Source: a virus
Direction: 5' to 3' (one strand)
Length of the DNA: 52,581 nt
IMG/VR virus record: IMGVR_UViG_3300025704_002224
Coordinates: 1-52,581 of that record
This document shows positions 6,041 through 52,524 of the stretch, in pieces. A program made the translations under genes and the position numbers. Each line of letters begins with the position of its first letter. Positions within the stretch are counted from its first letter, which is position 1. The notes beneath the pieces were generated by a model. The model was not told the DNA's origin. It did no database searches and worked only from the letters and a program-made list of their open reading frames with translations.

Positions 6041-7477
6041 ATGGAACTTGCTATATTAATGGCGGGTATTGTTTACGGCTTAATCATTGGCCTAATACCA
6101 GCCGCGGGAGCAACAACAGGTCTTATCACACTATTTGGAGTCATGCCCTACTTTGTAGGAGACCCTTACCTGGGTGTGATATTCTGCGTGGCAGTTGTGG
6201 CATCCTCAACAACCGGTGATTCATTTGCAGGTGTGCTGTTAGGCATACCTGGAGCCAACTCTGCGGCGGCCACCATGGTGGATGGTTTTCCCATGGCCAA
6301 GAATGGAGAGGCCACTAGGGCATTGAGTGCCGCGATCACTTCGTCTACTTGCAATGGTCTATTCTGGGGATCACTTACATTTTTATTTTTGCCATGGTAC
6401 ACCAAAGTTGTGATGTACATGGGCATACCCGAACTGTGGGCATTGGTGCTATTGGCATTTGTAACTGTGGGATTCGTATCCACTAGGCGATATGTCAGGA
6501 GTGTGCTCGCAATCGTGTTAGGTGTGACCGTAGGTCTGATTGGAGTGGATGTCAACAACGTACCAAGATTTACAATGGGTTGGAGATACCTCGAAGATGG
6601 TGTACAGATATTACCTTACATGGCAGGACTTTTTGCGATACCAGAACTCTGGGACGGATGGTTCAACAGGAAGAAGACCACAACGATAAAAGCAGAACAC
6701 GGCAGTTGGCAAGATCTCAAACAAGGAGTAAAAGATACCATACGATGTTGGAAGGACAGTGCCAGGGGAGGAGCCATAGGTTCTTTCATAGGACTGCTAC
6801 CTGGACTGGGTGGTGCAATGGCAGACTGGTTGGCATACGGTGCCACAGTTGCCGCTAATCCAAAAGAAAAGTTTGGCGTTGGCAATGTAAAGGGAGTCGT
6901 AGGCGCCGAGGGGGCCAACAACGCACAGAAGGCCTCGTCATTCATTCCAACAGTCTTGTTTGGTATACCTGGTGCAAGTTTCGCCGCGATACTGATGGGA
7001 CTATTTTTGTACCTGGGCATTGACCTGGGATCACCTGATACATTCTACGACGACAAATTATTTGACAGCATGACCTATGCGTTCCTACTTGGAACAATTA
7101 TCACTGCTGTCTTGTGTTATGGACTGGCATATTTCGCGGGGTGGATGACACGTATTCCATACGTGTACTACTTTCCTTGCATACTTGCTGTGATTGTTTG
7201 GGCAACCTTGCAGTACACGGGAGGGTGGGAAGACCTAGCGGTACTATTAGTATTCTCAGTATTTGGAGTGCTATGTAAAAAATTCCAAGTCAGCAGGCCA
7301 GCACTGCTGATTGGGTTCATATTAAGTGACAGGATATACAACCTCACTTATCAACTAACATCCTTACATACGGTAAATGATTTAATCACAAGGCCTATCT
7401 TTATTTTCTTGATGGCATGTGTTATCCTGCTAATGTATTGGGGAATAACAAAGAGGAGTCGATTAGACTATGCTTAA
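6041..7477 (+). CDS. tctA: Tripartite tricarboxylate transporter, large permease (TctA family)
   Basis: This 478-residue inner-membrane protein has about 10-12 hydrophobic segments. It shows both TctA hallmarks: the N-terminal GLIPAAGATTGL loop (family GxLPGxGPTxG), and GIPGANSAAATMVDGFPMAK (family IPGxxSxxATxxDGxPMA). A second repeat-like loop GLLPGLGGAMADWLAYG follows at about residue 250. TctA takes up carboxylates such as citrate with a periplasmic binding protein. The partner tctC overlaps its end by 8 bases. No TctB-like small subunit is next to it. Length is near the family's usual 500. This is an unusual phage gene; the substrate cannot be read from sequence. Confidence 0.9.
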   Translation: MELAILMAGIVYGLIIGLIPAAGATTGLITLFGVMPYFVGDPYLGVIFCVAVVASSTTGDSFAGVLLGIPGANSAAATMVDGFPMAKNGEATRALSAAITSSTCNGLFWGSLTFLFLPWYTKVVMYMGIPELWALVLLAFVTVGFVSTRRYVRSVLAIVLGVTVGLIGVDVNNVPRFTMGWRYLEDGVQILPYMAGLFAIPELWDGWFNRKKTTTIKAEHGSWQDLKQGVKDTIRCWKDSARGGAIGSFIGLLPGLGGAMADWLAYGATVAANPKEKFGVGNVKGVVGAEGANNAQKASSFIPTVLFGIPGASFAAILMGLFLYLGIDLGSPDTFYDDKLFDSMTYAFLLGTIITAVLCYGLAYFAGWMTRIPYVYYFPCILAVIVWATLQYTGGWEDLAVLLVFSVFGVLCKKFQVSRPALLIGFILSDRIYNLTYQLTSLHTVNDLITRPIFIFLMACVILLMYWGITKRSRLDYA

Positions 7478-8516
7478 GAAAACAATAATGGCGTTGGTGT
7501 TGATGACAACAACGGCGCTGGCAGATTACAACTTGATCGTGCCACAAAAACCATCTGGTGGAACTTCTGTGTGGGCACAGATAGTTGTAGCGGAATGGGA
7601 GAAACACCTGGGTGAGAAGATCAATCTTATCTACAAGCCAGGTGCAAGAGACCAACTGGGACCAAACGAGTTCCAAAATCAATTAAGGTTTGATGACAAG
7701 ACTATATTAGTATCACATGGTGGTAACGGTATATCATATCTCGTGGAACCTGTAGAATACAATTACTTTGATTGGGAATCAGTTGGACATATGAACCTAA
7801 ACATCATTGTGGGTGCTAGGAACAAGGCAGACACAAAGAACGGACCTATACAGTTTCCGTCAGGATCTGGAATGACTCCAGAGATCATGGCAATCGTCAT
7901 GTTGCTTACAGGACCCAACGGTGATCCAGTAAAAACATTTGAGAACAAGATTGTATGGGTAAAAGGAATGAAAGGTTCTGAGAGAAGACTTGCATTCATC
8001 AGAGGTGATTTGAACGCGACAAGGGAAAATCCTGCCGCATACAAGAAACACGTGATGCCAGTGATAGGAAAAGGTGATGCATACACTTGGTTCCATCATG
8101 GACTACTAAATGTGAAAACGGGCGAGCACGACAAGGATCCAAACTTCACAGAACCAACATTTGAGGCACTGTACGAATCAACATACGGAGTGGCACCGAG
8201 TGGTGACTTCTATGATGCGTACAAACTTGTCAAGAGTTGGAGAGATGCTTTACAGAAAGCATTCTGGGTGAACAAGGGCAATCCAAACAAGGCCAAACTT
8301 GTTGCCGCATTGGACAAGATGATCAATGATCCAGAGTCAGTGGCCGCTATCGAAAAGAAAGTGGGCAAGTACGAATGGAGAACAGGTGCAGAGGGTGACG
8401 CCGCAGTAAGAACACTGAAGTCATTCATCACACCGGGTGCGTTGAAAACACTATCTGATTTTGGAAAGAATCAATTGGGTTACAATGCTATCTACAAGGA
8501 AGAGTTGACCAAATAG
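7470..8516 (+). CDS. tctC: TctC-family periplasmic substrate-binding protein
   Basis: 348 residues. The N-terminus is a signal peptide (MLKKTIMALVLMTTTALA, cleaved near ADY). The mature protein opens YNLIVPQKPSGGTSVWAQIV, matching the TctC/Bug start LIVPxxPGGxxDxxAR. The periplasmic binding-protein fold is expected throughout. It would capture the ligand and deliver it to the TctA permease encoded just upstream; the 8-base overlap implies coupled translation. The usual Asp of the PGGxxD motif is not obvious, so ligand contacts may differ from known Bug proteins. Confidence 0.85.
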   Translation: MLKKTIMALVLMTTTALADYNLIVPQKPSGGTSVWAQIVVAEWEKHLGEKINLIYKPGARDQLGPNEFQNQLRFDDKTILVSHGGNGISYLVEPVEYNYFDWESVGHMNLNIIVGARNKADTKNGPIQFPSGSGMTPEIMAIVMLLTGPNGDPVKTFENKIVWVKGMKGSERRLAFIRGDLNATRENPAAYKKHVMPVIGKGDAYTWFHHGLLNVKTGEHDKDPNFTEPTFEALYESTYGVAPSGDFYDAYKLVKSWRDALQKAFWVNKGNPNKAKLVAALDKMINDPESVAAIEKKVGKYEWRTGAEGDAAVRTLKSFITPGALKTLSDFGKNQLGYNAIYKEELTK

Positions 8517-29996: not shown

Positions 29997-30569
29997 ATGG
30001 TAGACAGATACAGAGTTATAGAAAGATTCGCAAAAGAAAACAATTGGACTCAAGGATTGGAACTAGGTGTGTGGGTAGGAGTGACCACATTTTGGTTGAT
30101 GAAGAACACCGGTGTGAACATGACCTGTGTTGACGCTTGGGAGGCACAGGACGACAATCCAGAATACGACTGGCAATACAACAAGAAACCTATTTTTAAA
30201 GGAGGCAAGTTGGTTAGGTTAGAGGAGTTCAAGAACGAGGGCCAGGTTTGGAATCACAATGCCAATGAACAGAGATTCCGTGATGATGCTGAACACTGGG
30301 GAAGCAGGATTCGAATCATAAAAGGACGGTCACTTGCCGTCATAGATCAAATACCAGACAACAGCATGGACTTCATATTCCATGATTCAGATCATTCATA
30401 TCCCTTCGTCAAGAACGAGATACAAGCCTACCTGCCCAAGTTAAAAAGTGGTGGATATTCTATGGGTGATGACTACAACTGGACTCCTGTGAAGAGATCA
30501 GTGGAAGAAGCATTTGGGGATATGCATAAGGTAACCGGCAAGGATGTCTGGTACGCTGTAAAGAATTAG
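29997..30569 (+). CDS. SAM-dependent methyltransferase (Methyltransf_24-like)
   Basis: 190 residues from ATG 29997, with AGGA upstream. Motif I is GLELGVWVGVTTFWLM; a CVDAWEAQD acidic strand follows; FIFHDSDHSYPFVKNEIQAY holds the DxxH-type substrate region seen in Methyltransf_24 members. It follows the FkbM gene by 7 bases. The target is probably a sugar, by context. It ends convergent with the small minus-strand gene at 30566 (4-base overlap). Confidence 0.78.
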   Translation: MVDRYRVIERFAKENNWTQGLELGVWVGVTTFWLMKNTGVNMTCVDAWEAQDDNPEYDWQYNKKPIFKGGKLVRLEEFKNEGQVWNHNANEQRFRDDAEHWGSRIRIIKGRSLAVIDQIPDNSMDFIFHDSDHSYPFVKNEIQAYLPKLKSGGYSMGDDYNWTPVKRSVEEAFGDMHKVTGKDVWYAVKN

Positions 30570-30775
30570 TCTTCTATTTCCACACAACCAATCACTATCT
30601 TCTCGTAGGGTTGCTGGTATGTTGCGAACACGTCAGTCATCGCATAGAAACGATATTCCGCCATCTCTTCACACTTGGCCAACTCTTGATAGATCACCTG
30701 ATCGCTGTCATTGTAGTTGGTACACTCAACAGCACCGTTGACTAGGAAACACATGGTTGCAAACAATTTGAACAT
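30566..30775 (-). CDS. Small exported Cys protein (paralogue of 31925-32137)
   Basis: 69 residues. MFKLFATMCFLVNGAVEC is a signal-peptide-like start. The mature part has KCEEMAEYRFYAMTDVFATY and a C-terminal Cys (IGCVEIED), with three or four Cys in total. The gene at 31925 has the same size and spacing. It lies just downstream of the tmRNA on the same strand and could share its transcript. Function unknown; periplasmic location inferred. Confidence 0.6.
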   Translation of the reverse strand: MFKLFATMCFLVNGAVECTNYNDSDQVIYQELAKCEEMAEYRFYAMTDVFATYQQPYEKIVIGCVEIED

Positions 30776-30779
30776 AGCA

Positions 30780-31087
30780 CTATTTAAGTGGCCCGTTCTG
30801 TTGCAAGGTGGGCCATACCCCTGGGATTATTGGTTATTACGCCGCTAATCTCAATTCAGACATACCAACTGTTAAGTCAGCAAATCCTAATGCTTTTTTG
30901 TTTGCATTTAAAAAACAGCCTGATTAGGTCAGTGCCATCACCGTAAACTCCCAAGACCTTTACACACCCGTCGAAGCCAAATACACCCCCGGAAGGGATT
31001 ACATAAGCCACCCGTAATAAATTGGTGGAGGTGGAGGGAGTCGAACCCTCGTCCGAAATGTTTATTTCGTCGTGATCAACATTTACA
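30780..31087 (-). ncRNA. ssrA: Permuted (two-piece) tmRNA gene
   Basis: On the minus strand the acceptor end comes first. A T-arm (GAGGG, loop TTCGACT, CCCTC) and acceptor strand CACCTCC followed by ACCA end at 31023. A 32-base spacer (31022-30991) follows, then the tmRNA 5' end GGGGGTG at 30990, continuing TATTTGGCTTCGACGG. GGGGGTG pairs with CACCTCC (one G-U). This order is the circularly permuted form, normally cut to two RNAs. The tag frame starts at GCA 30905: 22 codons beginning ANKKALGF and ending SELRLAA, then TAATAA (30839-30834). The acceptor piece also has an AAATGTT/AACATTT hairpin. Outer ends are estimated. Confidence 0.88.
30789..30815 (-). terminator. Hairpin at the 3' end of the tmRNA gene
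   Basis: TGGCCC and GGGCCA pair with a 15-base loop. No T run follows, so it may be a tmRNA helix or processing signal rather than a terminator. Confidence 0.4.
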
Positions 31088-31093
31088 AATATA

Positions 31094-31122
31094 ATTATAC
31101 CTGAAGGTTGACGTATTGTCAA
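31094..31122 (-). promoter_or_regulatory. Sigma70-like promoter for the tmRNA
   Basis: TTGACA (31122-31117), 17-base spacer, TATAAT (31099-31094). Perfect consensus; predicted start 31087. Confidence 0.88.
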
Positions 31123-31136
31123 CTTTGTGCTAAATT
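31108..31136 (+). promoter_or_regulatory. Sigma70-like promoter with leaderless spacing, sharing -35 region with the tmRNA promoter
   Basis: TTGACG (31108-31113), 17-base spacer, TAAATT (31131-31136). Predicted start 31143, one base before ATG 31144. Its -35 and the tmRNA -35 form the palindrome TTGAC-N5-GTCAA. Confidence 0.6.
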
Positions 31137-31143
31137 AGTTTAT

Positions 31144-34798: not shown

Positions 34799-35716
34799 AT
34801 GAAAAAGATATTGTCAGTTCTTCTGTCGGCTTTTCTTCTTTTCACGGCAGACGTTCTTGCTGGTGATAAAATAATTGTGTTGAATACAGCCAGTAACAAT
34901 GGAACAATGTTCTCGCAATCAACAGCATATGCAGAAGATTTTAAAAACATGGGATACGATGTTGAATTCGTGTCTCCGGGTAACGCTTGTAAGGCTTGGG
35001 CATACCTACAGAAAGTGCCATCCAACCAACCCGTGTTTATAAACATAGATGCTTACGGACAGGCCAAACCTGCATCTGGACTTTTACAAAACTGTGGTCC
35101 AATATTGGCCAGCAAGAAAGATCTTGTTGCCGCTTACTTAGATCATTTCCATGTGTGTACAATAAATGGATCGGCCGATGAATTATTTTCTAAGGGTGCG
35201 AGCACAAGGATAGGCACTAACAAGCCTGGTGGATTTTGGCAACCGGTGGTTGATAAAATCAATAAAGAAAATAAATCAAGTCATAAGAGGATACAGTACG
35301 GCGGCAGTGGAGACACGAGAAAAGCATTACTTTCAGGCGAAGTGGATTATGTGTTCTTATCAACACGCCACACATACAAACTAGAAAATGCGGGAGCAAC
35401 TTGTTTTGCCGAGTTCACTGATTCTAAAAAACTCAAATACGAACACACTGTTAACGACCTGTCAGCAGGTAAGGATAAATTTGATTCTAGTTTCGCGACT
35501 GGTTGGAGTTTGTTCAATGCTGACAAGAAAATGGTTAAGCAACTGAGAGTGCAGATTAGATCGTTATTTGAAAATGATAGTAACATCATCAAAGCATTAG
35601 GCGGTTCAACACCGATCAACTATTACGGTTGGGACAAATCTATTTCTGCTAGGGTGAAATGGGTAAACGGCTCTATAGATAGATGGGCACAGGCTATGAA
35701 GCAGGCCGCTCAATAA
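34799..35716 (+). CDS. tctC: TctC-like periplasmic substrate-binding protein (second)
   Basis: 305 residues. Signal peptide MKKILSVLLSAFLLFTADVLA, cleaved before GDK. The mature part has the TctC-like segments IGTNKPGGFWQPVVDKINKE, then IQYGGSGDTRKALLSGEVDY, where the ligand-dependent hinge region is expected. It differs clearly from the first TctC (7470), so it is not a recent copy. Two extra Cys pairs are visible (PGNACKAW, LQNCGPI, FHVCTI). It would feed the permease encoded after it. Order here is C-A, the reverse of the first pair. More AT-rich than the first TTT pair. Confidence 0.8.
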   Translation: MKKILSVLLSAFLLFTADVLAGDKIIVLNTASNNGTMFSQSTAYAEDFKNMGYDVEFVSPGNACKAWAYLQKVPSNQPVFINIDAYGQAKPASGLLQNCGPILASKKDLVAAYLDHFHVCTINGSADELFSKGASTRIGTNKPGGFWQPVVDKINKENKSSHKRIQYGGSGDTRKALLSGEVDYVFLSTRHTYKLENAGATCFAEFTDSKKLKYEHTVNDLSAGKDKFDSSFATGWSLFNADKKMVKQLRVQIRSLFENDSNIIKALGGSTPINYYGWDKSISARVKWVNGSIDRWAQAMKQAAQ

Positions 35717-37020
35717 GGCCAGTGGACTTTCTACTTGCAATCATACTAGGTATATTTGCAGGAACATTTGCAGGTTTACTCCCAGGGGTGGGGGCAACCG
35801 TAAGTGTCTTAATTCTATTCCCAGTACTGCTTACATTTGATCCTATAAACATCATTGTTTGTTTCGTCAGTTTGTATTCCATGACGCAGTATGTTGGAAG
35901 TGTACCCGCATTATTGCTAGGTGTTCCTGGGGAAGCCAGTTCATTACCTGCAGTCATTGAAGGGCAAAAACTAAAACAACAGAACAAGATTAGTGATGCT
36001 ATTGCATACACGGCAATCGGATCCCTCGTGGGATCGGTAATCGTCGTGGCACTTACACTTATCAGCGGACCGCTTATTGAGAACCTTGCTAAAATTTATA
36101 GGACACCTCTTCAGACTGTTTTGATCTTTTTAGTGCTGACGATGATGTTTTTCTACAAGGAAAATAAGAAATTTACTAATCTTGTGTTAATGATCGCTGG
36201 TTACGTACTTGGCATGATAGGCATACACGGAGACCTTAATCGAGAATTTTTAACATTTGGTAACGTTAATCTCTACAGTGGTCTGCCTATGTTTCCAGTG
36301 CTACTTTCATTATTTGTATTTCCATTATTCTTAAAGACTGTAGACACTCCTACTAGAAATATTTCACCTTTCAAAATAAGGCTATCGTACTTTGTGACCT
36401 TTTTCAAACACAGTACAAGTAGCCTACGCGGAACACTACTAGGATTCATAGGAGGCTTTTGTCCTGGGATGACACACGCCTTCAGTAGTCAACTGGCATA
36501 CACAACAGAAAAAGCAATCAGTAAAGACAGTCTAAAAAGTGTTATAAGTTCTGAAACGGCCAACAATGCCGGAGCGTTCAGTGCCGTGTTGCCATTGATA
36601 ATCCTCGGCATTCCTATATCAAGCAGTGAGGCTCTACTGCTGGCTATCCTGGAAACAAAATCTTTTGCATTCAGCCTTAATGAGTTTATTCCTATCTTGC
36701 AGAAATCAGCGGTGGCATTATTAATTGTAAACGTCATAGGGATTATCATTGCATGGCCACTTGCTAAACATGTTTGCAAAATATTTCTTATAAATCAAAA
36801 AAAATTATACACATTTTTGTTTCTATCCTTGGTCATGCTGAATTACTATATTGGTGGCCTTTACTACAGCGAATATTACTACATGATAGTTTTATTATGT
36901 TTTATGCCGGTAGGCTATCTGTTACGCAAAGTAAACACAATGCCGTTGATATTTTGCTTTATAATAGCGAACTACAGTATCGAACTCATGTGGATTTTTT
37001 ACCAACTATACCTAATGTGA
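35683..37020 (+). CDS. tctA: TctA-family permease (second)
   Basis: 445 residues if it starts at ATG 35683; a GTG at 35722, just after the tctC stop, is the likely alternative. About 10-12 membrane segments. GTFAGLLPGVGATVSVLI and LLGVPGEASSLPAVIEGQKL are the two TctA signatures. A second loop FIGGFCPGMTHAFSSQLAYT and GIPISSSEALLLAILE mirror them, as expected from the internal duplication. It overlaps tctC by up to 34 bases. Together with 6041 this is a second, distinct carboxylate-type importer on a phage. No TctB gene is found. Confidence 0.85.
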   Translation: MGTGYEAGRSIRPVDFLLAIILGIFAGTFAGLLPGVGATVSVLILFPVLLTFDPINIIVCFVSLYSMTQYVGSVPALLLGVPGEASSLPAVIEGQKLKQQNKISDAIAYTAIGSLVGSVIVVALTLISGPLIENLAKIYRTPLQTVLIFLVLTMMFFYKENKKFTNLVLMIAGYVLGMIGIHGDLNREFLTFGNVNLYSGLPMFPVLLSLFVFPLFLKTVDTPTRNISPFKIRLSYFVTFFKHSTSSLRGTLLGFIGGFCPGMTHAFSSQLAYTTEKAISKDSLKSVISSETANNAGAFSAVLPLIILGIPISSSEALLLAILETKSFAFSLNEFIPILQKSAVALLIVNVIGIIIAWPLAKHVCKIFLINQKKLYTFLFLSLVMLNYYIGGLYYSEYYYMIVLLCFMPVGYLLRKVNTMPLIFCFIIANYSIELMWIFYQLYLM

Positions 37021-44605: not shown

Positions 44606-44977
44606 ATGGGACTGAACTTAAAAATGTTTGACACTCTAGGTATGTTGACTGTGGTGACACCACCGTCCATGATGAATCCGGAAAAGCTCAGTTTCACCAT
44701 CATAAATTTGAGGGAAAAGGAAAAGAACCACTTTGCAAAAGCATTGAACACATTGTTTCCAAATGATAATATCACAGTGTACATGTATGATCACCCCGGA
44801 TACCAGGAATGGCTGGAACAGGCCATCACGAAATCTAAATACATAATAATGGAAAAAACCAAAGCGCCGATATGGATCCAAGAAATGGCACCTGAGAAGA
44901 AAACTTATTATGTTTCTGAAGAACAAACAATAGAAAAAACATTTGAGATAATCAATAAAAAAGAAAGCGAGGCCTAA
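44606..44977 (+). CDS. Conserved phage protein, 123 residues
   Basis: It follows the membrane protein by 4 bases, and its stop overlaps the clpX start (TAATG). A mixed alpha/beta protein (NITVYMYDHPGYQEWLEQAI, KYIIMEKTKAPIW) that may be a small Rossmann-like fold. I recall relatives in T4-like cyanophages but no function. Its coupling to clpX makes an adaptor role worth testing, but that is inference. Confidence 0.62.
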   Translation: MGLNLKMFDTLGMLTVVTPPSMMNPEKLSFTIINLREKEKNHFAKALNTLFPNDNITVYMYDHPGYQEWLEQAITKSKYIIMEKTKAPIWIQEMAPEKKTYYVSEEQTIEKTFEIINKKESEA

Positions 44978-46227
44978 TGTCAGAAGAAGCGTTGATATGC
45001 TCATTCTGTGGCAAGAGTCGTAAGGACGTCACGAAGATGATCGTGGGCGCCAAGAAGACATCTATCTGCAACGAGTGTGTAAAACTATGTGTAGAGATAC
45101 TGGACGAAGATGTGATCAAAGCACGGAAAGAAAAACTGTACGCAGGAGACAAGCACATCCTAAATCCCGTGGCCATTAAGGAACACTTAGACCAATATGT
45201 CATAGGACAAGATCAGGCCAAGACGGTGTTGAGTGTGGCCGTGGCAAACCACTACAAGAGGATAGTTCAACCACCCATTGACTTCGATCTCGATAAATCA
45301 AACGTCATGGTGCTAGGAGCCACAGGTGCTGGTAAGACACTGATGGCAAGAACAATAGCAAAGTACCTAGACGTACCATTCGCTATAGCGGACGCCACGA
45401 CTCTCACAGAGTCAGGATACGTGGGCGATGATGTAGAGAACGTGGTGCAGAAACTTTACGCCAACTCTGAGGGTGACATAGAGAAGACACAGAAAGGCAT
45501 AATATTCATAGACGAGATCGACAAGATATGCAGGAAAGGTGAGAACACATCACTGACCAGAGATGTATCCGGTGAGGGTGTGCAACAAGGCCTACTTAAA
45601 ATTGTTGAAGGAACCGAGTGCAGGGTACCGCCACATGGAGGTAGGAAACATCCAGACCAACAGACCATAACAATAGACACCAGTAACATCCTGTTCATAG
45701 TGGGTGGTGCATTCACGGAACTGGAGAAACAGATCAGAAGGAAGAAAGCATCAGGGGGTATAGGATTTGGAACCAAACTGCAGGAACAAGACGACAGGAA
45801 TTACCTGTCAGAAGTTCAACCTGAGGATCTTATCAAATACGGACTGATACCGGAGTTCGTGGGCAGGTTCTCCATGATCACCAACATAGATCCCTTGGAC
45901 GAGGCGCAGTTGATAAGGATACTGACAGAACCCCGTAATGCCATCCTTAAACAGACCAAGTACCTGTTTGGATTGGACAACATAGAAATTGAGTTTACCA
46001 AAGAGGCCAAGCAGAGCATTGCAGGTAAGGCCAAAGCACTAGGTACCAATGCAAGGGGACTGAAAAACGTAGTAGACACAGTGGTTCTACCCTATCAGTT
46101 TGACGCAGAGGAAATGAGGAACAGGGGAGTCAGCAAGATACAGATAACTAATGCGGTGGTTGACAAAGGAGCAGACCCTGTGTTAGTATTTAAAAAAACA
46201 AATGGAATATCAAAAAAACAAAGTTAG
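44977..46227 (+). CDS. clpX: ATP-dependent protease unfoldase ClpX
   Basis: 416 residues, full-length. Zinc-binding domain Cys8, 11, 31, 34; Walker A GATGAGKT (114-121); pore loop GYVG (147-150); Walker B IIFIDEID (175-182); RKH loop (223-225), which binds ssrA tags; IGF loop (262-264), which docks ClpP; PEFVGRF and NARGLK sensors. Every functional motif is present, so it could dock on host ClpP and unfold tagged proteins. Walker A has GATGAGKT instead of the usual GPTGSGKT. It overlaps the bS21 gene by 26 bases. With the tmRNA and ClpS it forms a phage protein-quality set. Confidence 0.97.
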   Translation: MSEEALICSFCGKSRKDVTKMIVGAKKTSICNECVKLCVEILDEDVIKARKEKLYAGDKHILNPVAIKEHLDQYVIGQDQAKTVLSVAVANHYKRIVQPPIDFDLDKSNVMVLGATGAGKTLMARTIAKYLDVPFAIADATTLTESGYVGDDVENVVQKLYANSEGDIEKTQKGIIFIDEIDKICRKGENTSLTRDVSGEGVQQGLLKIVEGTECRVPPHGGRKHPDQQTITIDTSNILFIVGGAFTELEKQIRRKKASGGIGFGTKLQEQDDRNYLSEVQPEDLIKYGLIPEFVGRFSMITNIDPLDEAQLIRILTEPRNAILKQTKYLFGLDNIEIEFTKEAKQSIAGKAKALGTNARGLKNVVDTVVLPYQFDAEEMRNRGVSKIQITNAVVDKGADPVLVFKKTNGISKKQS

Positions 46228-46495
46228 ACCCAAGTTCAAGAAAACAGAGAGACCTTTGGGTTTCCAGGGCTACTACGTGGAAGTGCGTGAGGGAGAAGAT
46301 GCCGTCAGGGCATACAGGAAGATCAAGAGATGGATCAAGGAAGACAAGTTCATTGACCAGATCAGGGCCAACAACACTTACCAAAAACCATCAGAGATCA
46401 AAGTAGAGAAAGCCAAGGAACGCAGGAAGGTGCTACGAAAACTGCGTAGGGAACGCGACAGTTTCATATCAATGCGTCCACAAAGAGGCAGATAA
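46202..46495 (+). CDS. rpsU: Ribosomal protein bS21 homologue
   Basis: 97 residues. YYVEVREGEDAVRAYRKIKR, then YQKPSEIKVEKAKERRKVLR, follow the bS21 pattern (VRExEsxdxALRRFKR, then YEKPxxxRKRK). A basic tail ends RPQRGR. It has about 24 extra N-terminal residues against typical bS21 (55-75 residues). bS21 sits on the 30S platform near the anti-Shine-Dalgarno and helps initiation. Phage copies are known. The start lies inside the clpX end, so the two are coupled. Confidence 0.85.
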   Translation: MEYQKNKVRPKFKKTERPLGFQGYYVEVREGEDAVRAYRKIKRWIKEDKFIDQIRANNTYQKPSEIKVEKAKERRKVLRKLRRERDSFISMRPQRGR

Positions 46496-46517
46496 TTTTA
46501 CCAACATAGGTCGTAAT

Positions 46518-46545
46518 TTGACATATAGCACATATATGTTATAAT
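46518..46545 (+). promoter_or_regulatory. Sigma70-like promoter for hsp20
   Basis: TTGACA (46518-46523), 16-base spacer, TATAAT (46540-46545). Predicted start 46552; leader of 69 bases. Confidence 0.85.
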
Positions 46546-46551
46546 AAATAA

Positions 46552-46620
46552 AGTTGAAGATTGCTTTAGATAGGATCTTCACTATTAATAACTCGCTTAA
46601 ACTTAAAAGGAGGAAAGCAC
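46552..46620 (+). promoter_or_regulatory. hsp20 5' leader, candidate RNA thermometer
   Basis: GAAGAT (46556-46561) can pair with ATCTTC (46575-46580). TGCTTT (46562-46567) is fully complementary to AAAGCA (46614-46619), which lies between the AGGAGG site and the ATG. The two helices could alternate and mask the start region. Heat-shock leaders of hsp20 genes in alphaproteobacteria often are thermometers; this one is only a candidate. Confidence 0.4.
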
Positions 46621-47073
46621 ATGAAAAACAATCTATCTATTTTTAACAACCTAAGACCACTAACCGTAGGGTTTGACAATGTATTCGATCAATTGGAATA
46701 CATGATGGAAGACCGTTTCTTTGAGAAGTCGGGCAACAATTTCCCACCATACAACATAGTGAAGACCGGTGAGAACACTTACGACGTTGAACTTGCACTT
46801 GCAGGTTTTGGGAAGGATGACATAGTAGTAGAGTACAAAGAAAATACACTTACTGTGAAATCAAAACCAAACAAAGACCCAGCAGACGAAGTTGAAAGTT
46901 ACGACGAGGGAGTGATACACAGAGGCATCTCAAAAAGGATGTTCACTAGATCATTCACTATTGCAAATGACGTGGAGGTCAAAGGTGCAGAACTGAAAGA
47001 TGGTTTACTTAAAGTGAGCCTGGAGAGAATAATTCCAGAACACAAAAAAGCAAAAACTATTGAAATCAAGTAA
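46621..47073 (+). CDS. hsp20: Small heat-shock protein Hsp20 (IbpA-type)
   Basis: 150 residues. The alpha-crystallin domain runs about 40-135: NFPPYNIVKTGENTYDVELA, LAGFGKDDIVVEYKENTLTV, and the closing GLLKVSLERIIPEHKKAKTI. The N-terminal arm is LTVGFDNVFDQLEYMM and the C-terminal tail KTIEIK holds the I-x-I motif. It holds unfolding proteins soluble, without ATP. Strong AAAAGGAGG site and promoter. Marine T4-like phages commonly carry hsp20. A hairpin follows the stop. Confidence 0.93.
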   Translation: MKNNLSIFNNLRPLTVGFDNVFDQLEYMMEDRFFEKSGNNFPPYNIVKTGENTYDVELALAGFGKDDIVVEYKENTLTVKSKPNKDPADEVESYDEGVIHRGISKRMFTRSFTIANDVEVKGAELKDGLLKVSLERIIPEHKKAKTIEIK

Positions 47074-47085
47074 AGCAAAGTGGAT

Positions 47086-47105
47086 AGGGTGGTAATTACC
47101 ACCCT
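47086..47105 (+). terminator. Hairpin after hsp20
   Basis: AGGGTGGT pairs with ACCACCCT around AATT, a perfect 8-10 bp stem, but only TTCCAT follows. Probably a terminator in both directions, or a stabiliser of the hsp20 mRNA end. Confidence 0.65.
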
Positions 47106-47112
47106 TCCATAA

Positions 47113-47140
47113 TTGACAACTTGTGTAGATATGCTATAAT
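47113..47140 (+). promoter_or_regulatory. Sigma70-like promoter with exact leaderless spacing (clpS)
   Basis: TTGACA (47113-47118), 16-base spacer, TATAAT (47135-47140). Predicted start is exactly ATG 47147. Confidence 0.88.
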
Positions 47141-47146
47141 AAAGGT

Positions 47147-47449
47147 ATGGAAATGACAGATATACAAACACTTACAAAAGAAAAAATTAAACTAGACGAG
47201 CCGGGACTATATGACGTTTTATTCCTCAACGACAACATCACGACCATGGAGTTCGTTGTCAAGGTTCTCAAACAGATCTATGGCAAGACACCAGAGCAGG
47301 CACAGAACATCACAACAAAGATACACCAGGACGGACAGGGCATTGTTGGATCTTACGTGCATGAGGTTGCCGAACAGAAAGGCATAGAGACCACACTGGC
47401 CGCGAGACAGGAAAACTTCCCACTACAGGTCAAAGTCAAGAAGCAGTAG
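47147..47449 (+). CDS. clpS: ClpS-like adaptor protein
   Basis: 100 residues. YDVLFLNDNITTMEFVVKVL carries the ClpS core (LxNDDxTxMEFVVxVL), where the Asn and acidic residue bind the N-terminal amino group of substrates. KTPEQAQNITTKIHQDGQGI, SYVHEVAEQKGIETTLAARQ and NFPLQVKVKK follow as in ClpS (H in VH or IH). ClpS hands N-degron proteins to ClpA and lowers ssrA degradation by ClpAP. The N-terminal extension is short. Leaderless by promoter spacing. Next gene starts 1 base after the stop. Confidence 0.9.
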   Translation: MEMTDIQTLTKEKIKLDEPGLYDVLFLNDNITTMEFVVKVLKQIYGKTPEQAQNITTKIHQDGQGIVGSYVHEVAEQKGIETTLAARQENFPLQVKVKKQ

Positions 47450-50546: not shown

Positions 50547-50576
50547 ATGATAAAAGAAACACTGAACAAACTGTAA
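50547..50576 (+). CDS. 9-residue leader peptide
   Basis: ATG 50547, 9 codons (MIKETLNKL), then TAA overlapping the fdxA start (TAATG). It has the only good Shine-Dalgarno site of the operon, so ribosomes probably enter here and reinitiate at fdxA. Confidence 0.6.
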
Positions 50577-50902
50577 TGACATACACTGTCAATGACAAGT
50601 GTATAATGTGTAAACACACAGACTGTGTGGAGGTGTGTCCGGTGGACTGCTTCTACGAGGGAGAGAACATGCTGGTAATCAATCCAGACGAGTGCATAGA
50701 TTGTGGAGTTTGTGAGCCGGAGTGTCCAGAGGACGCCATAAGGCCAGACTCTGACGATGAAGGGAAAGCATGGGTGGACTTCAACACCAAGTGGTCGACC
50801 GCGGGTTGGCCAGTACTAGCAACTAAAAAAGATTCGCTCGATCCAGATGGCACACACAAGGACGAGCCAAACAAACTTGAGAAATATTTCAAGGACAAGT
50901 AA
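50576..50902 (+). CDS. fdxA: FdxA-type ferredoxin (3Fe-4S/4Fe-4S)
   Basis: 108 residues. Seven cluster Cys plus spares: C9, C12, C17, C21, C25, C40, C43, C46, C50, in CxxCxxxxCxxxCP and [13 protein letters not shown] order, as in alphaproteobacterial Fdx[18 protein letters not shown] is nearly the textbook sequence. The C-terminal part is the usual acidic extension. It carries electrons, here plausibly to the radical SAM enzymes. It starts in a TAATG overlap with a 9-residue leader. Phage ferredoxins exist, but this type with sufE and sufT is unusual. Confidence 0.95.
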
Positions 50903-50914
50903 TGAAAGAACAAT

Positions 50915-51103
50915 ATGAAAAGAGACAAGAAGAAATCAAAATGGCAGGCCAGACGAGAGAAGGAGGCCAGCGAGAATTCACAGTTCGATCCCAAGATACA
51001 TCAACTGGGTAGAGAGGGATACGGATTCCAAATGAAACGAGACATCGAGGCAACCGAAGAGGAACTGTCAGGCAAGAACCTGCCATTCAAAACAGAGAAA
51101 TGA
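50915..51103 (+). CDS. Small charged protein, 62 residues, coupled to sufE
   Basis: Starts MKRDKKKSKWQARREKEASE and ends FKTEK; the stop overlaps the sufE start (ATGA). Highly charged, no motif. A reading in another frame starting at 50902 is possible but lacks the sufE coupling. It lies between fdxA and sufE, so it may act in Fe-S supply. Function unknown. Confidence 0.5.
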   Translation: MKRDKKKSKWQARREKEASENSQFDPKIHQLGREGYGFQMKRDIEATEEELSGKNLPFKTEK

Positions 51104-51501
51104 TCATAGACAAGATCACAGAGATGGGGGAGAACCTGAAACTGTTGGAAGGACACGACAGGCTACACTATCTCATAGACAAGGCCAAGGAGATAGAACC
51201 ACTTCCAGAGTCTGCTAAGAACGAAGAGAACAGGATACGTGGTTGTGCAAGTAAACTATGGCTGATAGGTGGTGTACGTGAGGACGGCACAATGATGTAC
51301 CAGGTGGACGGAGACGCACACCTCAGCAAAGGCACAGCAAAAGTTGTCACCGACATTGTTAACGGTGCCCACAGGAGTGAAGTAGCAAATCTCACAGTTG
51401 AAAGTTTCACACCGTTGGGCATAAAAGAATTACTCACAATGCAGAGACAAAACGGATTGGGAGAACTAATAGACAGAATAATAAGGATAGCACATGATTG
51501 A
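51100..51501 (+). CDS. sufE: SufE-type sulfur acceptor
   Basis: 133 residues. RIRGCASKLWLIGGVREDGT holds the active Cys C49 in the family's GCxSxxW motif; LTMQRQNGLGELIDRIIRIA is the usual C-terminal helix. SufE receives persulfide sulfur from the SufS desulfurase and passes it to cluster assembly. It relies on host SufS and SufBCD. It overlaps the previous and next genes (4 and 8 bases). Confidence 0.92.
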   Translation: MIIDKITEMGENLKLLEGHDRLHYLIDKAKEIEPLPESAKNEENRIRGCASKLWLIGGVREDGTMMYQVDGDAHLSKGTAKVVTDIVNGAHRSEVANLTVESFTPLGIKELLTMQRQNGLGELIDRIIRIAHD

Positions 51502-51892
51502 CATGCCACCAGGATGGGTACCCAACAATGACGCATCAGTTGACCCACATCTAGAATGTGATCTAAAAGAGATAAAAGAACATCCACCAACACAACAGGA
51601 GTACATGCCTCGTATAGTTGAGAAACTTAAGGAGTGTTATGATCCAGAGATCAGCGTGGACATATACAATCTGGGCCTGATATACGATGTTAAAGTCACA
51701 GAGGACGGTCACGTCCATGTGTTGATGAGCCTGACAAGTGCATTCTGTCCAGCGGCAGACATCATCCCACAAGATGTGAAAATGAAAGTAGAGAGTATAC
51801 CAAATCTTAAATGCAAGGTCAAGATAACAATGCAACCACAATGGGGGCGAGACATGATCAATCCAGAGATCCGTGAGCTGATGGGACTATGA
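51494..51892 (+). CDS. sufT: MIP18/DUF59 family protein (SufT-like)
   Basis: 132 residues. YDPEISVDIYNLGLIYDVKV is the DUF59 hallmark (DPEIPVNIYDLGLIYDV). HVLMSLTSAFCPAADIIPQD carries the family Cys, and MQPQWGRDMINPEIRELMGL closes it. SufT-like proteins help mature or maintain Fe-S proteins. It overlaps sufE by 8 bases and thyX by 4, so this is one operon with fdxA. Confidence 0.92.
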   Translation: MIDMPPGWVPNNDASVDPHLECDLKEIKEHPPTQQEYMPRIVEKLKECYDPEISVDIYNLGLIYDVKVTEDGHVHVLMSLTSAFCPAADIIPQDVKMKVESIPNLKCKVKITMQPQWGRDMINPEIRELMGL

Positions 51893-52524
51893 TGAAAGTA
51901 GAACTAATAGATAAAATGGGCACAGACCTATCTGTTGTCAATGCGGCACGGGTAAGTTACTCCAAGACCAAAGAAGCATTTGACGTGGTCAAGGATGAGA
52001 AGTTAATAAAGTACCTAGCGGAACACGAACACTGGTCACCGTTCGCACATGCATCATTACAGTTCAGGATTAAAGCACCCATATTCGTTGCGAGGCAACT
52101 GGTCAAACACCAAGTGGGTCTTGTGTGGAACGAGGTATCAAGACGCTACGTGGACCATGCACCAGAACTGTACAAACCAGACTCATGGAGGGGCAGACCA
52201 CAGAATTCAAAACAGGGTTCGGATGGAGAAGTAGAACTGGACCAGACAATCAATCACAACATGGAGACCACGATGCAGAACTGCCTCGTGCTGTACAAGT
52301 CATTGTTGCAGAAGGGTGTGGCACCGGAACAGGCACGTATGGTTCTACCACAGAGCATGATGACCGAATGGTATTGGTCAGGCACACTGTACGCATTCGC
52401 TAGGGTGTGTAACCTGAGATGCAAACCAGACACACAACGAGAAACACAGGAGGTGGCCAACGACATCGATAGACTGACTAATGAGGCGTTTCCAAGAAGT
52501 TGGAAGCATTTAAGAAAAATTTAA
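51889..52524 (+). CDS. thyX: FAD-dependent thymidylate synthase ThyX
   Basis: 211 residues. The flavin/dUMP site is KHQ at 73-75 followed by NEVSRRYV (81-88), a variant of the ThyX motif RHR-X7-S. ARMVLPQSMMTEWYWSGT and RCKPDTQRETQEVAND contain the later active-site residues. It methylates dUMP to dTMP with methylene-tetrahydrofolate, NADPH and FAD, feeding phage DNA synthesis with NrdA/NrdB. It starts in ATGATG overlap with sufT (either ATG 51889 or 51892). Confidence 0.93.
   Translation: MMKVELIDKMGTDLSVVNAARVSYSKTKEAFDVVKDEKLIKYLAEHEHWSPFAHASLQFRIKAPIFVARQLVKHQVGLVWNEVSRRYVDHAPELYKPDSWRGRPQNSKQGSDGEVELDQTINHNMETTMQNCLVLYKSLLQKGVAPEQARMVLPQSMMTEWYWSGTLYAFARVCNLRCKPDTQRETQEVANDIDRLTNEAFPRSWKHLRKI

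Follow-up and report, generated by a model that had tools for sequence, protein, structure and literature searches.

A permuted two-piece tmRNA with a conserved tag and a variable tRNA-like domain in a group of marine T4-like phages

Introduction

What does a phage gain by carrying its own tmRNA? This RNA frees stuck ribosomes and tags unfinished proteins for destruction. Proteins with the ssrA tag are degraded by ClpXP via a C-terminal end of the LAA type, and ClpS diverts ClpAP from such proteins to N-degron substrates. In the usual tmRNA the tRNA-like domain is conserved and the tag is variable. A first-pass annotation of a viral DNA fragment described a tmRNA gene in two permuted pieces, and proposed that the phage uses it either to rescue ribosomes on its mRNAs or to add a different degradation tag. 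We examined the gene, its relatives and its surroundings, and weighed the explanations for its presence.

Results

A complete permuted tmRNA gene

The stretch of DNA analyzed here (the window, 52,581 nucleotides) is a whole IMG/VR record, IMGVR_UViG_3300025704_002224. It is a linear fragment of a marine T4-like phage, with a GC content of 42.7% and nrdAB about 67% identical to those of cyanophages. On its minus strand, at 31086-30787, lies a complete circularly permuted tmRNA gene of the alpha type (Table 1). A search of the window with cmscan matched two Rfam models over their whole length, RF04321 (tmRNA_permuted; 109.9 bits, E 1.3e-20) and RF01849 (alpha_tmRNA, the best-scoring older model; 88.8 bits, E 8.2e-23), and both clear the gathering scores, 47 and 50 respectively, by a wide margin. 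ARAGORN, a tmRNA-specific program, independently called a permuted tmRNA with two stop codons and the same 22-residue tag that had been read at first pass. The covariance-model check proposed with that annotation thus upheld its classification of the gene as phage-encoded, permuted, of the two-piece type and of the alphaproteobacterial class.

The CCA end (31025-31023) lies ahead of the position where the other piece begins (30990), and exactly 32 nt (31022-30991) separate the two, in agreement with the order and coordinates first given. The acceptor strands GGGGGTG and CACCTCC, already noted as complementary, form 7/7 pairs, including G3-U70, the alanine identity pair recognized by AlaRS; the discriminator is A73. 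The T-arm, which had been called intact, has 5/5 stem pairs. The gene also has a resume codon and a tag frame that closes with a small hydrophobic degron followed by a stop. From its sequence, the RNA is predicted to be processed into two pieces in the cell. The 69-aa ORF directly downstream adjoins the tmRNA in many relatives, with 31-71% identity.

Table 1. Features of the tmRNA locus and the Clp island in the window
Feature	Position	Strand	Details
tmRNA promoter	31094..31122	-	TTGACA-17-TATAAT, exact sigma-70 consensus, directly upstream of the tmRNA
tRNA-like 3' piece	31023..31086	-	helix strand, T-arm GAGGG-TTCGACT-CCCTC, acceptor 3' strand CACCTCC, A73, CCA
Intervening spacer	30991..31022	-	32 nt between CCA and mature 5' end; removal by processing expected
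tRNA-like 5' piece	30942..30990	-	acceptor 5' strand GGGGGTG, D-loop-like TTCGACGG, start of helix 2
First pseudoknot region	30906..30941	-	mRNA-like domain; exchanged among relatives
Tag reading frame	30840..30905	-	ANKKALGFADLTVGMSELRLAA, then TAA TAA (30839-30834)
3' pseudoknot region	30787..30833	-	alpha-type GCAACAGAA motif; reaches end of RF01849 match
69-aa ORF	30566..30775	-	directly downstream of tmRNA
ClpX	44977..46227	+	zinc finger, Walker A and B, GYVG pore loop, RKH loop, IGF ClpP-docking loop
Ribosomal protein bS21	46202..46495	+	PF01165, 34.7 bits, cut-off 27
Hsp20 small heat-shock protein	46621..47073	+	
ClpS adaptor	47147..47449	+	PF02617, 87.9 bits

The T-loop of the window tmRNA (TTCGACT) does not have the typical alphaproteobacterial form GGC[AG]GTA, so the claim of an alpha lineage draws on the remainder of the RNA. 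All phage tmRNA genes tested scored best with the alpha model, not with the beta or cyano models, in a search that reports the best clan member only, and a beta- or cyano-type origin of the TTCGA T-arm was rejected on these scores. Six sampled betaproteobacteria gave weak matches only. A T-arm identical to that of the window occurs in one-piece tmRNAs of unrelated phages, which may reflect convergence on a canonical T-arm. One-piece phage tmRNAs that share both the T-arm and the acceptor string of the window (L404, L411, L420-L423 and L431) have a long conserved tag, DVELSTMTFEDAMAFVGADYAVAA.

The perfect consensus promoter reported upstream of the gene proved exact, with the -35 box TTGACA at 31122-31117 and the -10 box TATAAT at 31099-31094, 17 nt apart. 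A dyad, TTGAC-N5-GTCAA (also given as GTTGAC-N5-GTCAAC; 31108-31122), overlaps the -35 box. It is the sole exact match in the window, one match being within chance for this pattern, and it is kept in 24 of 41 distinct promoters of relatives. The -10 box is TATAAT in the subgroup of the window and [CT]TTAAATA, a T4-late-like sequence, in most other relatives; with this difference between subgroups, the timing of the promoter may have switched.

Elsewhere in the window we noted, by sequence resemblance only, two unrelated-looking tripartite tricarboxylate transporter sets (TctA-like and TctC-like; 6041-8516 and 34799-37020) and a row of ferredoxin-like, SufE-like, PaaD/SufT-like and ThyX-like genes (50576-52524), a possible Fe-S cluster assembly set.

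Spread of the gene and its tags

Neither blastn with the tmRNA region nor tblastn with the tag gave a match among about 50,700 phage records. Relatives were collected by NrdB (80 in all). The tmRNA gene was present in 30/30 contigs with NrdB at least 83% identical and at least 4.5 kb of sequence downstream, and also in two more distant relatives that ARAGORN had missed (L061/G026 and L074). The gene is a near-universal core gene of this T4-like marine phage group. There are two main tag families, ALGFADLTV...RLAA and AFKPEVTVP...ELVAA. A search of IMG/VR with a degenerate DNA pattern for ALGFADLTV matched 52 viral contigs; the tmRNA tag was readable in 51 of them, and those with enough upstream sequence also have the tmRNA domain. 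In the AFKPEV clade, the short tag ADAELVAA called by ARAGORN was rejected as a frame-entry error, the full 23-aa tag being intact. We also observed permuted tmRNAs with a shifted T-arm, CGGGC-TCGAT-GCCCG, that ARAGORN did not call (L074, L397 and L433-L436; L074 and L433-L436 were called permuted by T-arm string and 5' piece only). Phage tmRNA counts based on ARAGORN are therefore likely too low.

Conservation of the tag and of the tRNA-like domain

The tag peptide varies little within each family. The pN/pS ratio was 0.29 for the ALGFADL family (10 unique 22-codon tag sequences) and 0.34 for the AFKPEV family (8 unique sequences), and at about 0.3 these ratios indicate that the peptide is under purifying selection. 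Tag identity was 0.83 in the phages (22 aa) and 0.43 in the hosts (last 9 aa). Mean T-arm identity was 0.56 in 37 phage haplotypes compared with 0.90 in 80 genes from Alphaproteobacteria, a set much broader than the phage one. The 37 haplotypes have eight T-loop strings and three acceptor stems; all 37 have a 7/7 paired acceptor that retains G3-U70, and 32 have a 5/5 paired T-stem; in the remaining five the register of the T-stem is shifted. Judged by these identities, the phages invert the bacterial pattern of conservation, with a conserved tag and a hypervariable T-arm.

The comparison with alphaproteobacterial tmRNAs suggested at first pass gave a mixed result. The two-piece RNA of these bacteria (RF01849) has the permuted order, G3-U70 and the GCAACAGAA 3' motif in common with that of the window. 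In contrast, its T-loop is GGC[AG]GTA or near in 80/80 sampled genes, and a TTCGANT T-loop was found in none of the 80. Host tags are mostly ANDN...ALAA and 9-15 aa long (68 of the 80). The 22-residue tag had been described as longer than usual, and it is long for Alphaproteobacteria, but it has precedents, as tags of 19-32 aa occur in the other 12.

A Clp island in phages that lack a detectable SmpB gene

On the plus strand, the window has an island of genes in the order ClpX, bS21, Hsp20, ClpS (44977-47449). ClpX was found in 14/14 contigs with the ALGFADL tag that include its locus, the order of ClpX, bS21, Hsp20 and ClpS being constant, and ClpS in 12/12 that extend past Hsp20; the contigs of this tag family without ClpX end before its locus. 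The GYVG and RKH loops (substrate grip) are kept in the phage ClpX proteins, and the IGF loop (ClpP docking) in most, L439 and L441 having one-residue IGF-loop variants unmatched by a strict motif. G014 and G433 also carry DnaK. In the AFKPEV family, Hsp20 and ClpS occur without ClpX, and sufficiently long contigs have ClpP downstream; L065 encodes ClpS together with a ClpP that shares about 55% identity with the host protein. Two further details of the island were observed. The bS21 gene overlaps the end of clpX and is part of the Clp/Hsp20 island in every contig extending that far, and the full-length DnaK of G014 lies between Hsp20 and ClpS (L215:5243-7132).

No SmpB gene was found in 20 phage contigs (the window and 19 relatives), which are fragment records, so that the gene may lie elsewhere in the genome; host controls were positive. 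For phages with such contigs, SmpB would have to come from the host. A general association of phage permuted tmRNA with ClpX was unsupported in Agrobacterium phage Atu_ph07, Bacillus phage G, LR756511 and Lak-B2 in a search for permuted tmRNA.

Phage-borne two-piece tmRNA is already known as a class, from phage Melnitz and about 50 other phages, mostly aquatic (PMC9004378). With these precedents the gene is not notable in itself, as the first-pass interpretation had it. It does have a distinct tag and an early-type promoter. The ssrA of Melnitz EXVC044M (MZ577097) and of related pelagimyophages is likewise a permuted alpha-type tmRNA in a marine T4-like phage (113 bits with RF04321 for Melnitz), and the Melnitz annotation names no SmpB, as in the window. 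Melnitz differs in its host-like tag, ANDNYVPVDYALAA, in having no annotated ClpX or ClpS, and in a reported glutamine riboswitch, whereas cmscan found no Rfam riboswitch in the window. A 328-kb jumbo contig (IMGVR_UViG_3300020477_000990; L075, G022) combines a tmRNA with ClpX, Hsp20, ClpS, ClpP and DnaK in an island like that of the window, but with a short tag, ADENLALAA, and three ClpP-family genes. An isolate, Sinorhizobium phage Phosso (PV764938), also combines a permuted tmRNA with ClpX; it differs in being a soil jumbo phage with a tmRNA of about 600 bp that ARAGORN did not call. What appears new is the context, namely a near-universal gene, inverted conservation and a ClpX-bS21-Hsp20-ClpS island.

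These data bear on a plainer alternative, that the phage degrades host mRNA and needs more tmRNA, with nothing special in the relation between tag and ClpX. Such a rescue supplement is possible, if somewhat unlikely. It fits the presence of tmRNA in phages without ClpX (Melnitz and the AFKPEV-tag clade) and the leaving of SmpB to the host, but not the conservation of the tag peptide, with synonymous change, across highly diverged tmRNAs when bacterial tags vary as much as they do, nor the recurrence of ClpX or ClpP together with ClpS beside different tags.

Exchange of tmRNA parts among relatives

Differences between related tmRNAs are concentrated in blocks. In the tRNA domain, 30 of 85 columns differ between the window and L004, against 4 of 177 in the spacer, pseudoknots and tag (p 6e-13; this and the following p-values treat columns as independent, and the phage alignments include very short segments). 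L002 and L007 differ at 39/85 tRNA-domain columns compared with 3/141 elsewhere (p 1e-16). Between the window and L002, the differences are mainly in the first pseudoknot (20/34 compared with 18/227 in the rest; p 4e-11), and in this region the window is 97% identical to L004 and 41% to L002. By these comparisons, the units that vary as blocks among relatives are the tRNA-like part and one pseudoknot. The window-type T-arm is also found with the AFKPEV tag, an L005-type T-arm is found with the tag ANNQLAMAA in L402, and one tag occurs with many tRNA-domain types.

Recombination between phage lineages is the simplest route to such exchange. The part conserved between the window and L004 includes the spacer, which lies between the two halves of the tRNA domain (and is 94-100% identical in L002, L004, L011, L038 and L039). 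A single crossover block therefore does not explain this pair, and two short exchanges or selected change would be needed. Host genomes G304, G245, G265, G203, G123 and G086 each have a second, partial match to the tRNA-like part of tmRNA (model 35-105), which may be a copy at an integration site.

Largely neutral recombination is a possible cause of the diversification. A tentative alternative, which we think rather unlikely, is that the phages exchange tRNA-like modules to match the SmpB, AlaRS and RNase P of different hosts. The host is probably a SAR11-like alphaproteobacterium: the DnaK of G014 finds its best matches (78-79%, compared with at most 75% for others) in four low-GC genomes of 1.2-1.3 Mb, which have their own tag (ANESYALAA/ANESYAIAA) and a SAR11-like profile. 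The assignment is weak, the GC content of the window being 42.7%. The T-arm and acceptor of L008 are exactly those of the SAR11-like hosts L275 and L291, the T-arm of the window is shared with one-piece tmRNAs as described above, and a host transition has been proposed for Melnitz (PMC9004378), all in keeping with module swapping. The T-arms of alphaproteobacterial hosts, however, barely vary, whereas those of phages with 95-98% identical NrdB do, and the alpha scores of all phage genes tested also speak against it.

Alternatively, nucleases of the host or of rival elements may attack the tRNA-like part, which the phage keeps changing. We consider this unlikely, although the low T-arm identity with pairing kept and the concentration of window/L004 differences in the tRNA-like part are what it would produce. 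Precedent comes from defence-evading phage tRNAs (PMC10264068, PMC11555353), which are likewise phage translation RNAs with local change and a retained fold (PMC10264068), and a nuclease that cuts tRNA tails exists (PMC12851939). In those tRNAs it is the anticodon loop that changes, rather than the whole T-arm, D-loop and acceptor as in the tmRNAs of the window group. Further, no nuclease is known here that targets the tRNA-like domain of tmRNA, and the pattern could arise with no arms race if co-infecting phages with several hosts recombine. A broader version, in which a dedicated phage tag and a dedicated phage ClpX/ClpS set are joined to a tRNA-like domain that changes to escape host enzymes destroying host tmRNA or tRNAs, seems improbable to us. 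That the RNA acts as a decoy for host tmRNA or inhibits it, for which the tag-less tmRNA of phage DS6A is a precedent (quoted in PMC11915505), or that it is a decaying captured host gene, is very hard to credit in view of the complete tag frame with stop codons, the intact acceptor, G3-U70 and the purifying selection indicated for the tag.

Discussion

We favor the explanation that this is a working phage two-piece tmRNA that rescues ribosomes and tags proteins via host SmpB, the tagged products probably going to ClpXP with phage ClpX. The strong sigma-70 promoter would drive early transcription, host RNases would excise the 32-nt spacer, and host AlaRS would charge the RNA through G3-U70. Delivery to stalled ribosomes would fall to host SmpB, invoked because the phages carry none that we could find, and EF-Tu. 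The RNA would then add alanine and the phage tag (...ALGFADLTV...RLAA), and ClpXP would take up the tagged proteins, with phage ClpX able to replace host ClpX on host ClpP and predicted to read the tag; phage ClpS would shift ClpAP to other substrates. In this way, ribosomes on cut or broken mRNAs would be freed during infection and their products sent to a phage-controlled unfoldase. Between the two functions first proposed, conservation of the tag peptide and of ClpX lends support to the addition of a different tag; either may apply. Two observations count against the favored explanation: ClpX is 14 kb from the tmRNA on the opposite strand, and Melnitz has a tmRNA without annotated ClpX. The link to ClpX, seen mostly in one phage clade, may also reflect common descent rather than functional coupling.

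The island joins parts of the ribosome (bS21), of chaperones (Hsp20, sometimes DnaK) and of proteases (ClpX, ClpS, ClpP) in what would be one viral program. Inverted conservation occurs here in an abundant marine phage group, and it poses a testable question, whether carriage of a phage tmRNA is driven by the tag, for protein disposal via phage ClpX, or by the tRNA domain, which would mean defence evasion or host switching. The mosaic set of genes is a natural experiment on the interchangeable parts of tmRNA.
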